Assembly (NCBI GenBank): GCA_018699415.1
Contig: JABIQM010000052.1
Location: 1 to 32,010, forward strand
Direction of reading: 5' to 3'
From: Acidimicrobiaceae bacterium
Lineage (GTDB): Bacteria > Actinomycetota > Acidimicrobiia > Acidimicrobiales > Aldehydirespiratoraceae
Length of the DNA stretch: 32,010 bases
The notes beneath the pieces were generated by a model. The model searched no databases and was not told the origin of the DNA. It saw nothing but the letters and a program-made list of their open reading frames with translations. This document shows positions 10,188-31,943 of the stretch, piece by piece (the first letter of the stretch is position 1; every line of letters starts with the position of its first letter). A program made the translations under genes and the position numbers.

Positions 10188-10691
10188 ATGTCAGTAATCG
10201 ACCGCGTTCGAGAGCTCGTTGCCCCGATTGTGGACGATGCTGGTGCAGATCTGTACGACATCGAGTTCGCCGGTGGAATCCTACGCATCCTCATCGATCA
10301 TGAGGACGGCATCGGCATCGATGACATCAAACGCATCAGCCGAACCACGAGCCACATGCTTGACGAGGTTGATCCGATTCCCGGCCGATTCACCCTCGAA
10401 GTGTCTAGTCCTGGTCTCGAACGGCCTCTTCGCACCGAAGATCATTATCAGCGAGCGATAGGTGAAAAGGTCAAGATCAAGACCTTTAACGAAATTGATG
10501 GTGCTCGCCGTTTCGAAGGCAAAGTTGTCACCGTTGACGCCGATGGTGTGGATCTCAGCACACGGTCTGGCTCGCGCCGCTTCGCCTATACCGATATCTC
10601 GAAGGCTCGCACTGTCTTCGAGTGGGGTCCCACGCCCAAGCTGGGTGGACCCAAGAAAAATCGCCCCAACTCCGAGGAGGCCATGTCATGA
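10188..10691 (+). CDS. rimP: Ribosome maturation factor RimP
   Basis: RimP assists assembly of the 30S subunit. The 167-residue protein starts MSVIDRVRELVAPIV and shows the family pattern: DLYDIEFAGGILRILIDHEDGI, then DEVDPIPGRFTLEVSSPGLERPL. The latter is the most conserved RimP stretch. A C-terminal Sm-like barrel (FEGKVVTVDADGV) follows. It is the first gene of the operon, and its stop overlaps the nusA start (ATGA). Confidence 0.95.
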   Translation: MSVIDRVRELVAPIVDDAGADLYDIEFAGGILRILIDHEDGIGIDDIKRISRTTSHMLDEVDPIPGRFTLEVSSPGLERPLRTEDHYQRAIGEKVKIKTFNEIDGARRFEGKVVTVDADGVDLSTRSGSRRFAYTDISKARTVFEWGPTPKLGGPKKNRPNSEEAMS

Positions 10692-11965
10692 ACCAGGAGA
10701 TGATGGAAGCGCTGCAGGCGCTTGCTATCGAACGAGGCATCAGCGTTGATGCACTCTTTGCTGCGCTCGCCGATGCGCTGGAGTCCGCCTACAAGCGGAT
10801 GCCTGATGCAAAAGAGTACGCCTGGGTCACAATTGACCCTGACACGCTCGAGTTTCTGGTCTTCGCCCAGGATCTCGACGAAGATGGTGAGCCCGTTGGC
10901 GAAGAATACGACGTCACGCCCGACAACTTCGGTCGCATCGCTGCCCAGACCGCTCGTCAGGTGATGACGCAGCGAATTCGTGAGGCTGAGCGAGAACTGA
11001 AGTACGAAGAGTACGCGGGCAGAGAGGGCGACATCGTCACGGGCATGATCCAGCAGACCGATGCGCGCTACACGCTGCTCGACCTTGGTCGAGTTGAGGC
11101 GTTGTTACCTCAGGCTGAGCAAGTTCCGTATGAGCGTCCCGACAACACGGCCCGTATTAAGGCCTACATCGTTGAGGTTCGCAAGACTGCCAAAGGCCCA
11201 CAGATCGTAGTGAGTCGTACGCACCCGGGTCTGGTGAAACGTCTGTTTGAACTTGAGGTTCCCGAGATCGCCGACGGCGTTGTCGAGATCAAGGCATGCG
11301 CTCGTGAACCTGGCCACCGCACCAAGATTGCTGTTTGGTCCAATGACACCAATGTCGACCCAGTCGGCGCGTGTGTGGGTGCGCGTGGCGCTCGTGTGCG
11401 TCAGGTCGTGAACGAGTTGCGTGGCGAGAAGATCGACATCGTGCCGTTCATTGAGGATCTCGAAGAGTTCGTCACTCGAGCACTGTCGCCGGCCAAGGTC
11501 ACGCAGGTTCGCCCTGATGAGTTGACTGGCGATTGCGACGTGATCGTTCCCGACTATCAGTTGTCGCTGGCGATCGGGAAGGAAGGTCAGAACGCCCGTC
11601 TCGCTTCTCGTCTGACTGGCTGGGGCATCAATATCAAGTCTGAGACTCAGCTCGCTGAAGAGCAGGCGTATGGCGATGTTGAGTGGGCTGACGGCGAGTG
11701 GATTGTTGACGCCGACTCCGGTGAGCAGTTGTGGCAGCCGGCCGACGGCAGTCAGGCGATGAGCATTGCCCAGTGGGAAGCCGCCTCCGACGCTGAAGCA
11801 GACGATGCTGTAGCCGTCGATAGCGATGGAAATGCTGAGGCGGAAGTCCTGAGCGAAGATGCAAACGCAGGTGATGCGGTCGCCGATCCTTCCGAAGACG
11901 CCGTCGTGGGCGAATCTGCCGACAGCGACGATGAAGGTGCTGATGACGCCGGGGAAGAAGAGTAG
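10688..11965 (+). CDS. nusA: Transcription termination/antitermination protein NusA
   Basis: NusA binds RNA polymerase and nascent RNA and modulates pausing, termination and antitermination. The start is the ATG at 10688, which overlaps the rimP stop, with GAGGAGG about 6 nt upstream. The N-terminal polymerase-binding domain is followed by an S1 domain (REGDIVTGMIQQTDARYTLL). Two KH domains come next: one with GACVGARGARVRQV, the other with LAIGKEGQNARLASRLTGW. The last 75 residues or so are highly acidic (Asp/Glu/Ala), which is unusual in length. The protein has 425 residues. The gene ends with TAG, and the next gene begins in the same frame 3 nt later. Confidence 0.96.
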   Translation: MNQEMMEALQALAIERGISVDALFAALADALESAYKRMPDAKEYAWVTIDPDTLEFLVFAQDLDEDGEPVGEEYDVTPDNFGRIAAQTARQVMTQRIREAERELKYEEYAGREGDIVTGMIQQTDARYTLLDLGRVEALLPQAEQVPYERPDNTARIKAYIVEVRKTAKGPQIVVSRTHPGLVKRLFELEVPEIADGVVEIKACAREPGHRTKIAVWSNDTNVDPVGACVGARGARVRQVVNELRGEKIDIVPFIEDLEEFVTRALSPAKVTQVRPDELTGDCDVIVPDYQLSLAIGKEGQNARLASRLTGWGINIKSETQLAEEQAYGDVEWADGEWIVDADSGEQLWQPADGSQAMSIAQWEAASDAEADDAVAVDSDGNAEAEVLSEDANAGDAVADPSEDAVVGESADSDDEGADDAGEEE

Positions 11966-21856: not shown

Positions 21857-21889
21857 ACAGCCCGTTCTTTGACGCGTTCGGAGCCTCTG

Positions 21890-22873
21890 GTGGAACCTAC
21901 TTTGGATGTGGTGGGCGTGGGCAACGCCATCGTTGACGTAATCGCCACAGTCCCAGAATCCTTTATTGATGAGCACGATCTCGTCAAGGGAGCGATGACG
22001 CTCATTGATGCCGAGCGCGCTACGAGTCTCTATGCTGCGATGCCGCCAGGGATCGAAGCTTCCGGCGGATCGGCGGCCAACACAGCAGTTGGCGTGGCGA
22101 GCCTCGGCGGATCCGCCGCCTATCTTGGCAAAGTCCGCAATGATCAACTCGGTGACGTGTTCGCCCGTGACCTGCGCGCCGCCGGAGTGGCGTTCGATGT
22201 CAGGCCTGCGTTGATCGGTGATCCGACTGCTCGGTGCCTGATCCAAGTCACCCCCGATGCCGAGCGCACGATGAATACGTTCCTTGGGATCTCGGCGTTC
22301 CTTGACCCGACGGATATCGACGACGCTGTGGTGGAGTCGGGGCGGATCACATACTGCGAGGGCTATCTCTACGACACTGACGAGGCCAAGGCCGCTATTC
22401 GTCACGCCATGGACGTTGCCATTGCTGCCGGTCGGACTGTGGCGATTACGCTGTCCGACTCGTTCTGCGTCGATCGCCATCGTGATGAGTGGCTCGAGCT
22501 GCTGGCTGACAAGGTTGATCTGGTGTTCGCCAACGAGGCGGAGGTCGGTTCCCTGTTTCTCACTGATGATTTCGAGGCGGCTAGTCGCCGGATCACCGAC
22601 CTTGTCCCGATGGCGGCGCTTACTCGCTCGGCCAAGGGCTCGGTGATCGTCACGGCTGATGAACGGATTGAGGTGAGTGCTTCGCCCGTCGAACGGGTAG
22701 TCGATGCCACCGGCGCTGGTGATCTCTACGCCTCGGGGTTCCTGTACGGCCTGGCGCGTGGCGCTTCGCTCGAACATTGTGCGGATCTGGGCAGTATCGC
22801 GGCGGGCGAGATCATCTGCCACATCGGGGCTCGTCCACTCGTGTCTTTGGCGGAGCTCGTTGTCGGTCAGTAA
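21890..22873 (+). CDS. PfkB-family sugar/nucleoside kinase (adenosine-kinase-like)
   Basis: The protein belongs to the ribokinase/PfkB fold. It begins with the strand DVVGVGNAIVDVIA, has the substrate loop GGSAANTAVGVASLGG, and ends with the anion-hole motif GAGD (275-278; Asp278 is the catalytic base). The start GTG at 21890 is preferred because GGAG lies 6 nt upstream; a TTG at 21869 would add seven residues. The length is 327 residues. The GIGNAIVDVI-like start resembles the adenosine kinase group, but ribokinase or another sugar kinase cannot be excluded. Adenosine deaminase and upp lie further along, which suits a nucleoside-salvage role. Confidence 0.85.
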   Translation: MEPTLDVVGVGNAIVDVIATVPESFIDEHDLVKGAMTLIDAERATSLYAAMPPGIEASGGSAANTAVGVASLGGSAAYLGKVRNDQLGDVFARDLRAAGVAFDVRPALIGDPTARCLIQVTPDAERTMNTFLGISAFLDPTDIDDAVVESGRITYCEGYLYDTDEAKAAIRHAMDVAIAAGRTVAITLSDSFCVDRHRDEWLELLADKVDLVFANEAEVGSLFLTDDFEAASRRITDLVPMAALTRSAKGSVIVTADERIEVSASPVERVVDATGAGDLYASGFLYGLARGASLEHCADLGSIAAGEIICHIGARPLVSLAELVVGQ

Positions 22874-22980: not shown

Positions 22981-22986
22981 TACCTT
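22981..22986 (+). promoter_or_regulatory. Putative -10 box upstream of a chain of mini-ORFs
   Basis: TACCTT lies 6 nt before an ATG (22993), the same geometry as at ispG, the crotonase and the MFS gene. It probably drives the locus that includes the amber-interrupted gene. Confidence 0.4.
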
Positions 22987-22992
22987 CAATCG

Positions 22993-23060
22993 ATGAGTGC
23001 AAGACGGTGATGCACCTGCCGACGACCGCAGCTTTGCCGATTACCCCGCCAGTCTTCTGA
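22993..23060 (+). other. Two overlapping mini-ORFs (candidate leader peptides)
   Basis: The first ORF (22993-23010) encodes MSARR. Its stop overlaps the ATG of the second (23010-23060; TGATG), which encodes MHLPTTAALPITPPVF. The second stop overlaps the GAGGAA ribosome-binding site of the next gene. Coupling or translational attenuation is possible from this layout. ORFs this short also occur by chance. Confidence 0.3.
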
Positions 23061-23072
23061 GGAACTTTCGCC

Positions 23073-23612
23073 ATGTCCATGACAGATCCGACGATGTCTG
23101 ATGCGAATAGCCTTGACCGGATCATGGAGATCGCCGAGGCCAACACCGACGTTCATGGGGTCATCCCCGCCGTTTAGGACAATGCCGACGCGATTTTCCG
23201 GCAGATCTGCGGCGAAGTTGACCTTTGTGAAGTGCTCGATCTCCAAGCCGAACTGCAACCCAACACGATCCTTGAGGATGACCCCACATCTCCGGTTTGC
23301 AAATGGGGTGACAAGGAGTGGCGTGAGTTCGGCTACCAGTCGACCAAGTGGCGGCTCTCTCAGTTCGTGCACGGCGAGTAGGGCGCCATGCTCTGTACGG
23401 TCAAGATCGTGGAGACGGTTGCCTGGATCGACGCCGACCAGGGTTGGTTGCGCGAGAAGTTCACCGAGATCGGCGTCATTGAGTTCGGGCACATGCCCGA
23501 AACTGGTGCGGTGCTCATCGATTACGGCATCAACGAAGATGGCTTCGAACAGCGATCTGCCGATATGCATTCCGCCGCAGCCGATGTTGCAATGGGGGCC
23601 GGCGAAAGCTGA
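23073..23612 (+). pseudogene. Gene of unknown function interrupted by two in-frame TAG codons
   Basis: The ATG at 23073 has a strong ribosome-binding site, GAGGAA at 23059-23064, with 8 nt spacing. The frame then runs 180 codons to a TGA at 23610-23612 with only two interruptions, both TAG: codon 35 (23175-23177) and codon 103 (23379-23381). No frameshift is needed. By hand count, 74 of the first 103 codons end in G or C and 62 begin with G or C, as expected for coding in this frame. The three pieces are acidic and soluble, with fragments such as RIMEIAEANTDVHGVIPAV and CKWGDKEWREFGYQSTKWRL; I recognise no family. The last part (23388-23612, 74 residues) could be translated alone from an ATG. 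A recent pseudogene is the plainest reading; amber recoding is the alternative. Confidence 0.6.
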
Positions 23613-23617
23613 CCACG

Positions 23618-23623
23618 TACGCT
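23618..23623 (+). promoter_or_regulatory. Putative -10 box of a leaderless crotonase promoter
   Basis: TACGCT lies 6 nt before the ATG at 23630, in the 17-nt gap after the amber-interrupted gene. No Shine-Dalgarno sequence is present. Confidence 0.45.
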
Positions 23624-23629
23624 TGATGC

Positions 23630-24469
23630 ATGGGATACACCTGTTTTGAGGTCGAAGAAGCCGACAACGTGACGCACATCCGCCTCAACCGTCCTGAACA
23701 ACTCAACTCCATGATTCCAGCGTTTTGGGCCGAACTACCCGAGATCGTCGACGGCTTGTCCGACGGTGGCCGAACCCGCGCAGTCGTCTTGAGTTCCACC
23801 GGCAAGCATTTCTGTGCTGGCATGGATCTGAGCGTCTTTGGCGGTGCGGGCCTCGAGGGTGAGGAGACTCTAAGTGCAGGTCGTCGCCACGCGAACTTCC
23901 GGTATAGCGTCCTGCATCTCCAGCGTGCGCTCACCGCACTCGAAGAGGCTCGAATGCCGGTCCTGGCCGCTATCCAGGGTGGCGCCGTCGGGGGTGCCGT
24001 CGATCTGATCACCGCCGCTGACTGTCGCTATGCCACCAAGGACGCCTGGTTCTGCATCCAGGAGATCAATATCGGCATGACAGCCGATGCCGGCACCCTG
24101 CAGCGCCTCCCCAAGCTCATCCCTGAGGGAATTGTACGTGAGTTGGCCTACACCGGTCGACGGATGTCAGCGACTCGGGCCGCCGAGGTTGGTCTTGTCA
24201 ACGAGGTGTTCGCTGATCATGACGCGATGCTTTCGGGCGTACATGAGATCGCTGCGGAGATCGCCAGCAAGACGCCGCTGGCTGTCCATGGCACCAAAGA
24301 GATGATCAACTTCACTCGTGACCACTCCGTCCAAGAGGGTCTGAAGTACATGGCTCTTTGGCAGACCGGCATGTTTCAGCCTTCCGACATGGCCGAGGCG
24401 TTCACCGCCATGAAGGAAAAGCGCGACGCGACATTCGAAGACCTCGGAGAAGTTCGCCGCGGCCTCTAG
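23630..24469 (+). CDS. Crotonase-fold enzyme, delta(3,5)-delta(2,4)-dienoyl-CoA isomerase-like
   Basis: The protein has the enoyl-CoA hydratase fold: oxyanion-hole segments HFCAGMDL (60-67) and AAIQGGAVGGAVDL (113-126). It resembles eukaryotic ECH1 more than a hydratase. Asp125, Glu145 and Asp153 have the same spacing (20 and 8) as the catalytic Asp176, Glu196 and Asp204 of rat dienoyl-CoA isomerase. TADAGTLQRLPKLI and RDHSVQEGLKYMALW also match that family. It would shift double bonds of dienoyl-CoAs in oxidation of unsaturated fatty acids. The length is 279 residues, without an obvious targeting sequence. The ATG lacks a ribosome-binding site. The gene stops with TAG. Confidence 0.88.
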   Translation: MGYTCFEVEEADNVTHIRLNRPEQLNSMIPAFWAELPEIVDGLSDGGRTRAVVLSSTGKHFCAGMDLSVFGGAGLEGEETLSAGRRHANFRYSVLHLQRALTALEEARMPVLAAIQGGAVGGAVDLITAADCRYATKDAWFCIQEINIGMTADAGTLQRLPKLIPEGIVRELAYTGRRMSATRAAEVGLVNEVFADHDAMLSGVHEIAAEIASKTPLAVHGTKEMINFTRDHSVQEGLKYMALWQTGMFQPSDMAEAFTAMKEKRDATFEDLGEVRRGL

Positions 24470-26730: not shown

Positions 26731-29604
26731 CTACGCGGGGACGCGTGCTACCTCGCCATATGTCTCGAAGTTAATCAGCCTGGCAGCAAGCCGTCTGACG
26801 TCAGCGGGACTGACTTGATCGAGTTCGCGATTGCGGTTGATGGTGGTGATGGCACCGCCGCCGAATCCGCTGACCGCTTCGGCATTCTGCGCAGTGAAGG
26901 TGTAGTTGCTTACAAAGTCGTAATCGGCGCGTAGCACTGCAACTGCCCGGTCGAAGGCACTCTGGCTTGGTCCATTTTCAGTGAGGTCGGTTAGCCCGAC
27001 AAATATGGCTGTACGGATCTCGTCGAGGCGCTCTGGATCACCGTTAATTTGGATGGTGAGATCCATTCGCTCGATTGGGACGGACCAGGGTGTGACGACT
27101 ACGGACCCGCCATAGGAGGCACCAAGGTCCTCACGAGGCGAGTCGATTATCAACGTCTGAATGAGCGTCTCCAAGACCCGACCGGTCATTGCGTCATTGA
27201 GATCCCAGTCGGCTCTCAAATCGAAGTGCCATGCGATCCCACCATTTTCTGCGTCGCCTCGGAGCGGAACTTCGATGGTGACGACTTCGGTGCGCGCTGG
27301 CGCGAGTTGGTTGGTGAAGCTGTCGTCGGGTCCGGGAGGCAGTGTGCCGACGTATGCGGCCGCGAGTTTGCCGACGACATCCGCATCGGCATCGCCGGCA
27401 ATCGAAAGTACGAGATCGTCGACGGTGCCGAACCGGGATACGAATATCTCGAGCAGCGAGTCTGGTGTGGCCGAATCCACTTCGCCCTGTGTTGGCACCC
27501 GACTGTTGAGCTCACGGCGATAGGTCATGTACCGCAGTTCAAGCTCCGCGGCAATAGCGGCATCCGCTGCGAGCTGATCGAGCAGGACTTGACCGCTCGA
27601 GATAGCACTGCGGAATGCGGTCTCGTGGATGCTGGGGGCGGTCATCAGGAGGTGATAGATCTGGAATAGTGTTTCGATGTCATTGGTGTCAGCGTTGCCG
27701 CTCAATCCCTCTCCTTCGCAGAAGATGACCGGGCTGATGCCGATGCTCTTGTCCGAGAGGAACTGATCGAGTTGGGTAGGCGAGTGGGGGCCCACGCCCG
27801 ACCCAATGACGGCATTCGATGCCAGTGCCGCCTCCGCGTACGAGACGTCATCGAGCGCGCTGTAGCCGCCCATTGAGGTAGCTTCGAAAGAGATCGAGCC
27901 GTCGACGATGTCCGTCTGTTGGAACACGACGGTGGCGCCGTTGTCGAACTCCCAGACGTGGGCATCCTGAAGCACTGTGTATGAGTTCGTGGGCTCCGCG
28001 GGTTCGGGGGAATCCATGAGTCGGTCGATCGTTTCGAAGTCGCTGGTAGGAGCACTACCGACCGTGGTCTCGGCAATCTCCAGCAGCTCCGTGATCGTGG
28101 GCAGGGTGGTTGCGTCGGCACCGACTGCGGCCATGATCGGGCCGCCGGTGGCGAGCGACCAGCGCCAGTGGTCCGATAGTTGATTGGAAGTGACCGATTT
28201 AATCACCTCGCGTTCTCGATCGATCCATGCCTGCTCAGGTTCGCCCCAAATACCTGTGAGAAAATGGTTGGTGTACCACCAGGCGTAGTCGGCATCCTGG
28301 GTCGAACCGAGCGATGCCTCCCAGGAATCAATGCCTGCACCGAACTCGGCAACAGCATCGGCGACTTCTTCTTCGGTAAAGCCGAAGTCGGCGGCTCCGC
28401 GTAGAATTGCCAGGTATTGCTTGAGCGTTGCACCGAGGTCGCTGCTTTCCAGATTGCTGCCGTAGTAGCGAAGGCCTCGGTTCAGGGAGAACTCGGCGAG
28501 GTATGGCTCATTGTCTGAGTTCAGCGTTTCATCGAACCAGGCATTGGTGAGACGGCGCGTCAGCATTTTGGCGATCAGGGTCTCCCAAACGATCAGTTTC
28601 GAGCCGCCTACTGTGCCCTGATCCCACGTGGTAAATGGGAAATCGACTGAGAGGTTGTCTGCAACGTTCTCGGGGTGGGTGATGATTTCAGCGACAGGAT
28701 TCGGTGAAATTGCCGGTGTCACCACGGTACGGGTGGGGTGGTCGTCACCACGTGCGGAGATCTCGCTAAACGCGTCGATCAGCTTTTCCTCAAGGACGTC
28801 AACGGGCACATCTCCGACGATGATGACCGCCATGTTGTCGGGGCGATACCAGCGGTCGTAGAAGGCCCGCAGCGGCGCTTCCTCCATGGTGTCGGCCCAC
28901 TCTGCGGTACCGATTGGTGACGAACCCTCGTAGCCGGTGCCGTCGGTGTACAGCTCTATGAAGTCGACGAAGATACGGCCATCAGCAGATTCGGTGCGTT
29001 GCCGAAGTTCGTCTCGGACGACACCGCGCTCGGCCGCGACTTCAGCTGGGTCGATCGTGGCCGCCGATGCCCACTGCGCGAGCACCTGAATAGCGGTATC
29101 GACAGTTGCCTCGTCATCTGTCTGAGCCCAGAGCTCGTAGACGGTTTCGTCGTATGACGTGAACGCGTTGAGTTCGGGGCCGAACTGAATCCCGAGGCTT
29201 TCGAGTGTGTCCTTCAGGTCATTGCCCGGGAAATCATCGGTGCCGTTGAACAACATGTGCTCAAGGAAGTGGGCAACGCCGCTGTCAGCCACCTCCTGTT
29301 GGACTGACCCAGCGTGCACGACGAGCCGTAGTTGGATCGACGAACCAGGGCTGTCGTTGTCGCGAAGGTAGTAGGTGAGTCCGTTGTCCAGCGCGCCGAT
29401 GACGGTATCCGAATCGAAGTCAAGGGGCGTGGGGTCCGGGTTCGGCGCATAGTTGAGCGAGTCATCGTCGTCGCTGGTTGCCTCGTCGGTCGCTTGGCTG
29501 AGGTCATACTCCTCTGCCAACTCTTCAGGTGTCGTTGTTGAACAGGCAGCGGCCAAGACCGCTGTCGTGAGGGTCACAGTGGCCCACCATTGCTTGTTCC
29601 GCAT
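26731..29604 (-). CDS. M16 (pitrilysin/insulinase-like) zinc peptidase, predicted lipoprotein
   Basis: The N-terminus has a hydrophobic signal with a lipobox (LAAAC, Cys21), so the protein is predicted to be exported and lipid-anchored. The inverted zinc motif HFLEH spans residues 112-116, and Glu192 in AAERGVVRDEL is the third ligand. An Asp/Glu-rich linker (residues 30-66) follows the lipid anchor. A second, non-catalytic M16 half fills the C-terminal part, giving 957 residues, like two-domain members such as PqqL-type proteins. It would degrade peptides outside the membrane. The -10-like TAGGGT lies 6 nt before the ATG and includes the TAG stop of the adenosine deaminase gene. The gene itself also ends in TAG. 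Confidence 0.9.
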   Translation of the reverse strand: MRNKQWWATVTLTTAVLAAACSTTTPEELAEEYDLSQATDEATSDDDDSLNYAPNPDPTPLDFDSDTVIGALDNGLTYYLRDNDSPGSSIQLRLVVHAGSVQQEVADSGVAHFLEHMLFNGTDDFPGNDLKDTLESLGIQFGPELNAFTSYDETVYELWAQTDDEATVDTAIQVLAQWASAATIDPAEVAAERGVVRDELRQRTESADGRIFVDFIELYTDGTGYEGSSPIGTAEWADTMEEAPLRAFYDRWYRPDNMAVIIVGDVPVDVLEEKLIDAFSEISARGDDHPTRTVVTPAISPNPVAEIITHPENVADNLSVDFPFTTWDQGTVGGSKLIVWETLIAKMLTRRLTNAWFDETLNSDNEPYLAEFSLNRGLRYYGSNLESSDLGATLKQYLAILRGAADFGFTEEEVADAVAEFGAGIDSWEASLGSTQDADYAWWYTNHFLTGIWGEPEQAWIDREREVIKSVTSNQLSDHWRWSLATGGPIMAAVGADATTLPTITELLEIAETTVGSAPTSDFETIDRLMDSPEPAEPTNSYTVLQDAHVWEFDNGATVVFQQTDIVDGSISFEATSMGGYSALDDVSYAEAALASNAVIGSGVGPHSPTQLDQFLSDKSIGISPVIFCEGEGLSGNADTNDIETLFQIYHLLMTAPSIHETAFRSAISSGQVLLDQLAADAAIAAELELRYMTYRRELNSRVPTQGEVDSATPDSLLEIFVSRFGTVDDLVLSIAGDADADVVGKLAAAYVGTLPPGPDDSFTNQLAPARTEVVTIEVPLRGDAENGGIAWHFDLRADWDLNDAMTGRVLETLIQTLIIDSPREDLGASYGGSVVVTPWSVPIERMDLTIQINGDPERLDEIRTAIFVGLTDLTENGPSQSAFDRAVAVLRADYDFVSNYTFTAQNAEAVSGFGGGAITTINRNRELDQVSPADVRRLAARLINFETYGEVARVPA

Positions 29605-29610
29605 GGTGGA

Positions 29611-29616
29611 ACCCTA
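29611..29616 (-). promoter_or_regulatory. Putative -10 box of a leaderless promoter for the M16 peptidase
   Basis: On the minus strand TAGGGT ends 6 nt before the ATG. Its first three bases are the stop codon of the adenosine deaminase gene. Confidence 0.5.
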
Positions 29617-30732
29617 GATGGGTGGCTCCAACTCTGAGGCTTCGAGGGGTGCGTATCCGGGTTTGATGACTTGTTCGATGAGTTGGAGACGCTCGCGGAA
29701 CGGAAGAAAGCTCGACTTCATGGCGTTGACGGTGAGCCAGCGCAGGCGGTCCCAGCCGTAGCCGAAGGTTTCGCTCAGGGCAGCCATCTCCGACGACATG
29801 GTGACGCCTGACATCAGGCGATTATCGGTGTTTACCGTGACGCGGAATCGGAGCTGGACCAGTTCGTCGATTGGGTGATCGGCCAGCCGCTCCACGACGC
29901 CGGTGTTGACGTTGCTCGTCGGGCAAACTTCCAGTGGGATACGGGCGTCGCGCAGATAATGGGCGAGTCGGCCCAGCGTTCGATCACCATCGGCGTCGCG
30001 ACCCATGTCCTCCATGATCCGGATGCCGTGCCCGAGCCGTTCCGCGCCGCAGAACTGTAGGGCTTTCCAGATGGAACGAGGGCCGTACGCCTCACCGGCG
30101 TGGATCGTGATGTGGAAGTTTTCACGTTGACAGAACTGAAAGGCGACGAGATGGTCGTCGGGTGGAAAACCATCCTCGGGGCCGGCGATGTCGAAGGCCA
30201 CGACACCATGGTCTCGATACCGGACGGCGACTTGGGCAACGTCGAGCCCGTTGTTTTGGTGACGCATGGCCGAGCAGATCACGCGGATGGTGAGATCAGT
30301 GCTGGTGGATCCAGCATCGAATCCAGCGAGTACGGCCTCAATCACAGCATCGAGGCTTAGTCCGCGCTCGGTGTGGAGTTCGGGTGCGAACCGGATCTCG
30401 GCGTAGACGACGCCATCGGCGGCGAGGTCTTCGGCGCACTCTCGGGCTACACGATGGAGAGCGGCCTCAGTCTGCATGACGCCAACGGTGTGGGCGAACG
30501 TCTCGAGATAGAGCGTCAAGTTTTTACGGTTCGCGCCTCGCAACATCCATTGCGATAGCTCGGCCGCGTCTGTTGTCGGAAGATCTCGATAGCCGAGTTC
30601 GTCGGCGAGTTCGATGATCGACGTAGGACGTAGGCCACCATCGAGATGGTCGTGAAGCAGCACCTTCGGGGCTTGGCGGATGCGCTCAAGCGTGGGTGGC
30701 CCAACGGATGGACCCGTGATGCGGGTTTTCAT
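29614..30732 (-). CDS. add: Adenosine deaminase
   Basis: The enzyme deaminates adenosine to inosine with a zinc ion. HDHLDGG supplies two zinc histidines. HAGE carries the third region with its catalytic glutamate, RLGHGI supplies another histidine, and NTDN stands where many homologues have NTDD. Actinobacterial deaminases often read NTDN, so the enzyme is probably active. The start is placed at the ATG at 30732 (372 residues); a TTG at 30738 would overlap the -10 box. The gene is first in the minus-strand run and diverges from the MFS gene across only 32 bp. It ends with TAG. Confidence 0.93.
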   Translation of the reverse strand: MKTRITGPSVGPPTLERIRQAPKVLLHDHLDGGLRPTSIIELADELGYRDLPTTDAAELSQWMLRGANRKNLTLYLETFAHTVGVMQTEAALHRVARECAEDLAADGVVYAEIRFAPELHTERGLSLDAVIEAVLAGFDAGSTSTDLTIRVICSAMRHQNNGLDVAQVAVRYRDHGVVAFDIAGPEDGFPPDDHLVAFQFCQRENFHITIHAGEAYGPRSIWKALQFCGAERLGHGIRIMEDMGRDADGDRTLGRLAHYLRDARIPLEVCPTSNVNTGVVERLADHPIDELVQLRFRVTVNTDNRLMSGVTMSSEMAALSETFGYGWDRLRWLTVNAMKSSFLPFRERLQLIEQVIKPGYAPLEASELEPPI

Positions 30733-30737
30733 ACTCA

Positions 30738-30758
30738 AGGCTAGCCCGAGGGTAGCGT
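30738..30758. promoter_or_regulatory. Back-to-back divergent -10 boxes for adenosine deaminase and MFS genes
   Basis: TAGCCT on the minus strand (30743 to 30738) lies 5 nt before the deaminase ATG. TAGCGT on the plus strand (30753-30758) lies 6 nt before the MFS ATG. Only 9 bp separate the two boxes, so each polymerase would cover the other's start. Confidence 0.5.
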
Positions 30759-30764
30759 GCTCAG

Positions 30765-31943
30765 ATGTCTGCCCGTAGAGGCCTTATCTCAGCGATGATG
30801 ATCGCAGCGATGGTCATGTCGACCTTCAGCCTGTTTGCCATGGCGGTTCTGGCATCGGCAATGATCGACGACTTGGAGATCAGTCGGGCCACCCTTGGGT
30901 TGGTAGGCGCGTTGAATACTGGACTCGGGGCCTTGACTGCTCCAGTAACTGGTCGGCTTGCTGATGTCGTTGGACCGCGCCGCGCCGTTCTCGGCACGAT
31001 GGCTTTCGGATCTGTCGGCATGCTCGTCATGGGCGTGGCGAACAACATCTGGGTCGTTGCGGTGGCGTTGCTGATCGCGGGAATTGCTCAGGGGTGGGGA
31101 AACCCGGCGTGCAACGCGTACATTGCCGCGGCTGTTTCGCCTGGTAAGCGGGGAATCACCATGGGCCTGAAACAGTCGGGTGTGACCTTGGCAATCGTGA
31201 TCTCGGGCTTGGCGCTGCCACCGCTTGAGAACGCCTCGACGTGGCAAGGAGCCTGCCTCGTCGCTGGTCTTGTGTTCGTTTGCCTATCGCTCCTCGCCAC
31301 CCGCATCCTTCCCCACCTTGAGCACCAGGGACGGCCTAATGGTTCAGACGCTTCCACGGTGGACAGGTCGCCGCTTCCCCCGCTTATCCGCCGACTCTCG
31401 ATCTATGCCCTGCTGATGGGAATGGCAAGCGGGGCCATCGGTCGATTTCTGCCGCTTTTCCTCGAAGAAGAGTTGTCGGTTTCTGCCCTATGGGCCGGGC
31501 GAACCATAGCGGTGTCCGGCCTCGTCGGGATGGTGGCGCGAATCGTGGCGGCCTATTTGGCGGAGCGTGGCCGGCCGACTCGAATGCTTGCTCAGTTGGC
31601 GCTGATGGGGGCATGTTCTAGCGTCATGCTGGCATTGTCCACCACTGTGGGCGTGTGGTTGATTGTCCCGATGGTGCTGTTCTATGGCGTGGGGTACACC
31701 GCTTGGAACGCCGTGATCAATCTTGCCGTCGTGATCAGCATGCCGAGCGAAGACGCTGGCCGAGCTTCGGGTCCTGTGATTTTTGGGTTCCTCGGAGGTG
31801 TCACAGTCGTGAGTCCGCTCGCCGGATGGATCGTGGATACCTGGGGCACCTACGGCCCGGTGTGGTGGGGTGGTGTTGTGCTTGCGTCGGCGTCAATATT
31901 TCTTGTGTATCGGCTACCGATGCCGCGATCAGAAGCCTCGTAG
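30765..31943 (+). CDS. Major facilitator superfamily transporter
   Basis: The 392-residue protein has about 12 hydrophobic segments, beginning near residue 10. After the second segment is GRLADVVGPRRAVLG, the MFS loop 2-3 signature. The central loop is around residues 190-205 (HLEHQGRPNGSDAST) and a second six-helix half follows. The substrate cannot be inferred; being divergent from adenosine deaminase, a nucleoside is possible but unsupported. The start ATG lacks a ribosome-binding site. The gene ends with TAG, and its last 15 nt overlap the convergent gene at the right edge. Confidence 0.88.
   Translation: MSARRGLISAMMIAAMVMSTFSLFAMAVLASAMIDDLEISRATLGLVGALNTGLGALTAPVTGRLADVVGPRRAVLGTMAFGSVGMLVMGVANNIWVVAVALLIAGIAQGWGNPACNAYIAAAVSPGKRGITMGLKQSGVTLAIVISGLALPPLENASTWQGACLVAGLVFVCLSLLATRILPHLEHQGRPNGSDASTVDRSPLPPLIRRLSIYALLMGMASGAIGRFLPLFLEEELSVSALWAGRTIAVSGLVGMVARIVAAYLAERGRPTRMLAQLALMGACSSVMLALSTTVGVWLIVPMVLFYGVGYTAWNAVINLAVVISMPSEDAGRASGPVIFGFLGGVTVVSPLAGWIVDTWGTYGPVWWGGVVLASASIFLVYRLPMPRSEAS

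Follow-up and report, generated by a model that had tools for sequence, protein, structure and literature searches.

The described systems closest to this locus are, among proteins, the AurF family (PF11583, p-aminobenzoate N-oxygenase) and the R2-like ligand-binding oxidases (R2lox, NF006200). Among interrupted reading frames they are the ordinary bacterial pseudogenes made by nonsense change and deletion, and the genes for which readthrough of in-frame stops has been proposed in some bacteria (PMC7918605). Our study concerns a window of 32,010 nucleotides from an Acidimicrobiaceae bacterium (contig JABIQM010000052.1, analysed as one stretch), in which a forward-strand frame at 23073-23612 is broken by two TAG codons. 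We conclude that this frame is almost certainly what is left of a ferritin-like diiron oxidase gene of the AurF/R2lox-like type: a pseudogene in decay, in an uncultured actinobacterium of the Acidimicrobiales. This reading is directly supported by homology, synteny, deletions, stops, an excess of amino-acid change and the complete loss of the gene from the same site in two congeners. The frame resembles ordinary bacterial pseudogenes in its stops, in short-repeat internal deletion, in raised amino-acid change and in loss from sister species, and it differs from them in nothing essential, except that its in-frame deletions hide themselves when no homologues are at hand.

Family and chromosomal place of the frame

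A search of whole genomes with the conceptual product of the frame gave matches in 91 of 149 genomes (the window's own counted); the best are to the congener G002, with 75% identity across residues 47-123, and to members of the same family. The matched targets are intact proteins of about 374-423 amino acids, not 179, found in both the genus and the family, and this homology to real proteins indicates that the frame is more than a chance opening in the sequence. Against PF11583, whose curated cut-off is 29.6 bits, intact orthologues score 35 and 31.5 bits, and the intact proteins carry two DEARH metal-site motifs, as would suit an AurF/R2lox-like oxidase. Their match to NF006200 is weak (40 bits vs an equivalog cut-off of 194), and their exact function is thus putative. 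The remnant itself has lost both DEARH motifs and, in a direct search of Pfam and NCBIfam, matched neither PF11583 nor the R2lox profiles, because the part that these profiles recognise has been deleted. A first pattern scan of genome contigs with the remnant as query also found nothing. With the intact congener protein as query, the scan returned hundreds of relatives, and those listed come nearly all from Acidimicrobiales/Acidimicrobiia or other actinobacterial records. Our literature search turned up no work devoted to this particular diiron group.

The frame lies between two intact, conserved neighbours on the same strand. From general knowledge of such families, we take the upstream one (21869-22873) to be a PfkB-type kinase gene; the downstream one (23630-24469) is presumably a crotonase-type gene, a name given by the earlier note and in keeping with our own general knowledge. 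Across the family, many genomes have an intact diiron gene between this pair, as do most of the close relatives in which the gene is present, and G002 has its intact copy between the same two neighbours. In G001 and G003 the kinase and crotonase genes are joined with a gap of less than 100 bp and the diiron gene has gone from the site, with just its last few bases left in G001; the site has therefore lost the gene in two of the three congeners. Across the taxonomic family, a relative of the diiron gene was found in 25 of 51 sampled genomes, one of these being the remnant.

The G002 locus (L083, contig C41) also holds about 1.2 kb of extra DNA upstream of the intact diiron gene, between it and the kinase gene. 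By appearance, the frames in this DNA encode a putative TetR-type regulator and, on the opposite strand, a putative LysE-type exporter.

Stops, deletions and relaxed selection

The frame starts with ATG at 23073 and ends with TGA at 23610-23612. It is preceded at 23059-23063 by the purine-rich ribosome-binding site GAGGA, which DNA alignment with G002 shows to be inherited; the intact congener gene has it too, at a spacing 3 nt shorter. The earlier note had remarked on this ribosome-binding site, on the TAG triplets at codons 35 and 103 as the sole in-frame stops and on the coding-like composition of the frame, and all three observations hold: GC content by codon position is 0.61/0.40/0.72, compared with about 0.67/0.45/0.68 in the real genes of the window. 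At codon 35 (23175-23177), protein alignment places mostly E in the homologues (Q, K, V, A or T in the others), while at codon 103 (23379-23381) Q is present in all intact homologues aligned, as leave-one-out conservation also indicates. The suggestion that the stops arose from CAG or GAG codons is in good agreement with these residues. None of the intact homologues aligned has TAG at either position, and among the best relatives listed (roughly 150, from 298 genomes of the order) no internal stop was seen. Translated from its original start, the remnant would yield at most a 34-residue peptide.

The two stops are not the only damage. Alignments with intact orthologues revealed a first deletion after codon 42 (junction at 23199-23213), where the window copy has five codons and the intact congener gene 34, a net loss of 29 codons. 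After codon 121, a second deletion joins the WIDA codons straight to the region that follows LLDA and omits 182 codons (546 bp). The lost codons include the two DEARH motifs as well as the region recognised by the AurF profile. The junction of this second deletion (23428-23435) is a single TCGACGCC, whereas in the intact genes each end of the missing stretch has a nearly identical copy of this 8-mer, ATCGACGCC-like at the left and CTCGACGCC-like at the right, so the stretch was probably lost by deletion between short repeats. Neither the missing core nor a second copy of the gene is present elsewhere in the genome, which is an estimated 98.7% complete; a rearrangement that moved the missing middle to another place was considered and rejected, since no such part exists in the genome. 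The view that, apart from two amber codons, there was nothing else wrong with the gene is thus contradicted. The accompanying argument, that a decayed gene usually shows further damage, fails as counter-evidence because the two deletions are that damage; being in frame, they are invisible to a reader without homologues.

To compare selection on the remnant and on its closest intact relative, changes were polarised, and the count was restricted to sites with the same state in the other intact genes. For codon positions 1, 2 and 3, respectively, 8/106, 11/120 and 15/60 sites have changed on the remnant branch and 2/100, 1/110 and 13/58 on the intact congener branch. At positions 1 and 2 together, the remnant has changed about six times as often (19/226 vs 3/210; Fisher P = 0.0008), as expected under relaxed selection, while third positions do not differ (P = 0.83). 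Seven of 46 otherwise invariant residues are altered in the remnant (the change of Q103 to a stop included), compared with 0-4 per intact homologue, most having 0 or 1. The tree groups the remnant with the G002 gene (support 96/91) and gives it a branch of 0.45, about four times that of the congener (0.12). Overall dN/dS between the remnant and the congener is still low (0.117/1.37), which is to be expected if the branch was mostly under selection before the loss. This pattern of change fits a gene that would have stayed under selection along most of its branch and been freed from it afterwards.

Two other interrupted copies were noted in the course of the analysis. L079 (G027:C2:115579-116625), which belongs to another genus, carries a single TAG at a position occupied by Q, T, S or E in relatives; it also has a small deletion near the N-terminus and several changes of its own, and the kinase and crotonase genes still lie on either side. 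This copy would seem to be a separate case of decay in the same gene. L080 (G022:C99:207299-208396) is a paralogue of the diiron family in which a single TAG replaces the glutamate of the first DEARH motif, likely a metal ligand, in a frame that is otherwise full-length; it may be a null allele of very recent origin, or else the result of a base error.

Readthrough, assembly error, amber suppression and other frames

Homology to an intact gene in the orthologous position, disabling lesions that the intact relatives lack and relaxed selection on the lineage together identify a pseudogene, and all three are seen here. Besides the low overall dN/dS, two points run against this reading. Firstly, both deletions are in frame and the sequence has no TAA, TGA or frameshift; two deletions would both fall in frame by chance about once in nine cases, if independent. 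The in-frame deletions, together with the preserved start, ribosome-binding site and terminal stop, could suggest that programmed or low-level readthrough maintains a short functional derivative. We consider this very unlikely, since TAG at these sites is conserved in no homologue, amino-acid change is raised on the remnant branch, ribosomes would have to pass two stops in series, and the diiron core is gone. Programmed readthrough is recognised by a stop conserved among relatives and by constraint downstream of it, a pairing that is not seen at this locus, and programmed readthrough as offered by the earlier note is accordingly disfavoured. The bacterial genes for which readthrough has been proposed (PMC7918605) resemble the remnant in having in-frame stops within a coding-like frame. 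They differ in that the remnant, with unconserved stops and relaxed selection, shows the opposite of the criteria on which that proposal is based. A more specific version, in which a core-less diiron derivative with a new role would be made at low level through two ambers, is more improbable still.

Secondly, the genome is in 333 contigs and its bin has 5.6% estimated contamination, so that the TAG codons or the deletions might be artefacts of a mixed metagenome bin. This too is very improbable: the contig is syntenic with the congeners on both sides of the frame, the flanks agreeing with all three, and decay is consistent with both stops, both deletions and the private amino-acid changes at conserved positions alike. 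An assembly error at two bases would, moreover, leave the loss of the core and the excess of amino-acid change unexplained.

A suppressor tRNA or pyrrolysine system that inserts residues at both TAG codons and so produces a 179-residue protein would account for both stops being TAG and for the remainder of the frame being open. We regard this as exceedingly improbable. None of the 42 tRNA genes found in the genome has a CUA anticodon, and a loose CUA-tRNA pattern gave five matches, none of them a tRNA. The PylS profile TIGR02367 gave no match above 19 bits, against a cut-off of 178, and at the same loose E-value it also matches in 14 of 14 control genomes. The check for a suppressor tRNA, pylT and pylS that the earlier note proposed thus yielded no CUA tRNA and no convincing pylS, which removes the footing of its amber-suppression option. 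That note had also held that at least five genes here stop at TAG, in conflict with recoding. Judged from the genes of the window only, five open reading frames do so (10622-11965, 23630-24469, 26731-29604, 29614-30738 and 30765-31943), the second being the crotonase-type gene, which we also see as a conserved neighbour. Nor would a read-through product have either of the DEARH motifs. Of the single-base changes that would create a stop in the intact genes, 59-77% are expected to give TAG, and two TAG codons are therefore expected and carry no signal. We also looked at TAG enrichment among broken copies in the taxonomic family and set it aside: all four internal stops are TAG, which has a chance probability of about 0.12-0.35 given the same 59-77%.

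That the true gene lies instead in the +2 frame at 23101-23649 (182 amino acids) or on the minus strand at 22986-23570 (194 amino acids), both open and longer than the pieces of the frame at 23073-23612, is likewise scarcely credible: neither has a Pfam match, the homology of the locus falls on the frame at 23073-23612, codon-position GC in the +2 frame is out of phase (0.40/0.69/0.63), and a comparable long antisense open frame is present in intact relatives (L002 1021-2523, plus strand).

Course and significance of the decay

With the active site deleted and two stops present, while relatives are intact in the same place, the locus is best read as a gene being lost in the ordinary way, with no recoding involved. 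The pseudogene option is borne out by intact homologues at the same position, deletions, stops and excess change, and what the earlier note had said would reveal a pseudogene, namely ordinary residues at the two sites in intact homologues together with the absence of a suppressor tRNA, is what we found. In the proposed course of events, the gene between the PfkB-type kinase and crotonase genes lost its function in the lineage of the window. A 546-bp deletion, probably a slipped or illegitimate event between TCGACGCC-like short repeats, took out the diiron core, 29 net codons close to the N-terminus went in a separate event, two sense codons turned into TAG and other codons drifted; the order of these steps is our own supposition. 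The codons that are left still look coding-like because decay would have set in late on the branch, and so far no indel has shifted the frame.

The importance of this finding is small beyond annotation. The overlapping open frames at 22986-23570 (minus strand) and 23101-23649 (plus strand) mean that automatic annotation may report false genes at this locus, and in-frame deletions can give a pseudogene the look of a recoded gene. For the genus itself, the remnant would represent a middle stage of gene loss, of which the start (the intact gene of G002) and the end (the empty site of G001 and G003) are found among its congeners.
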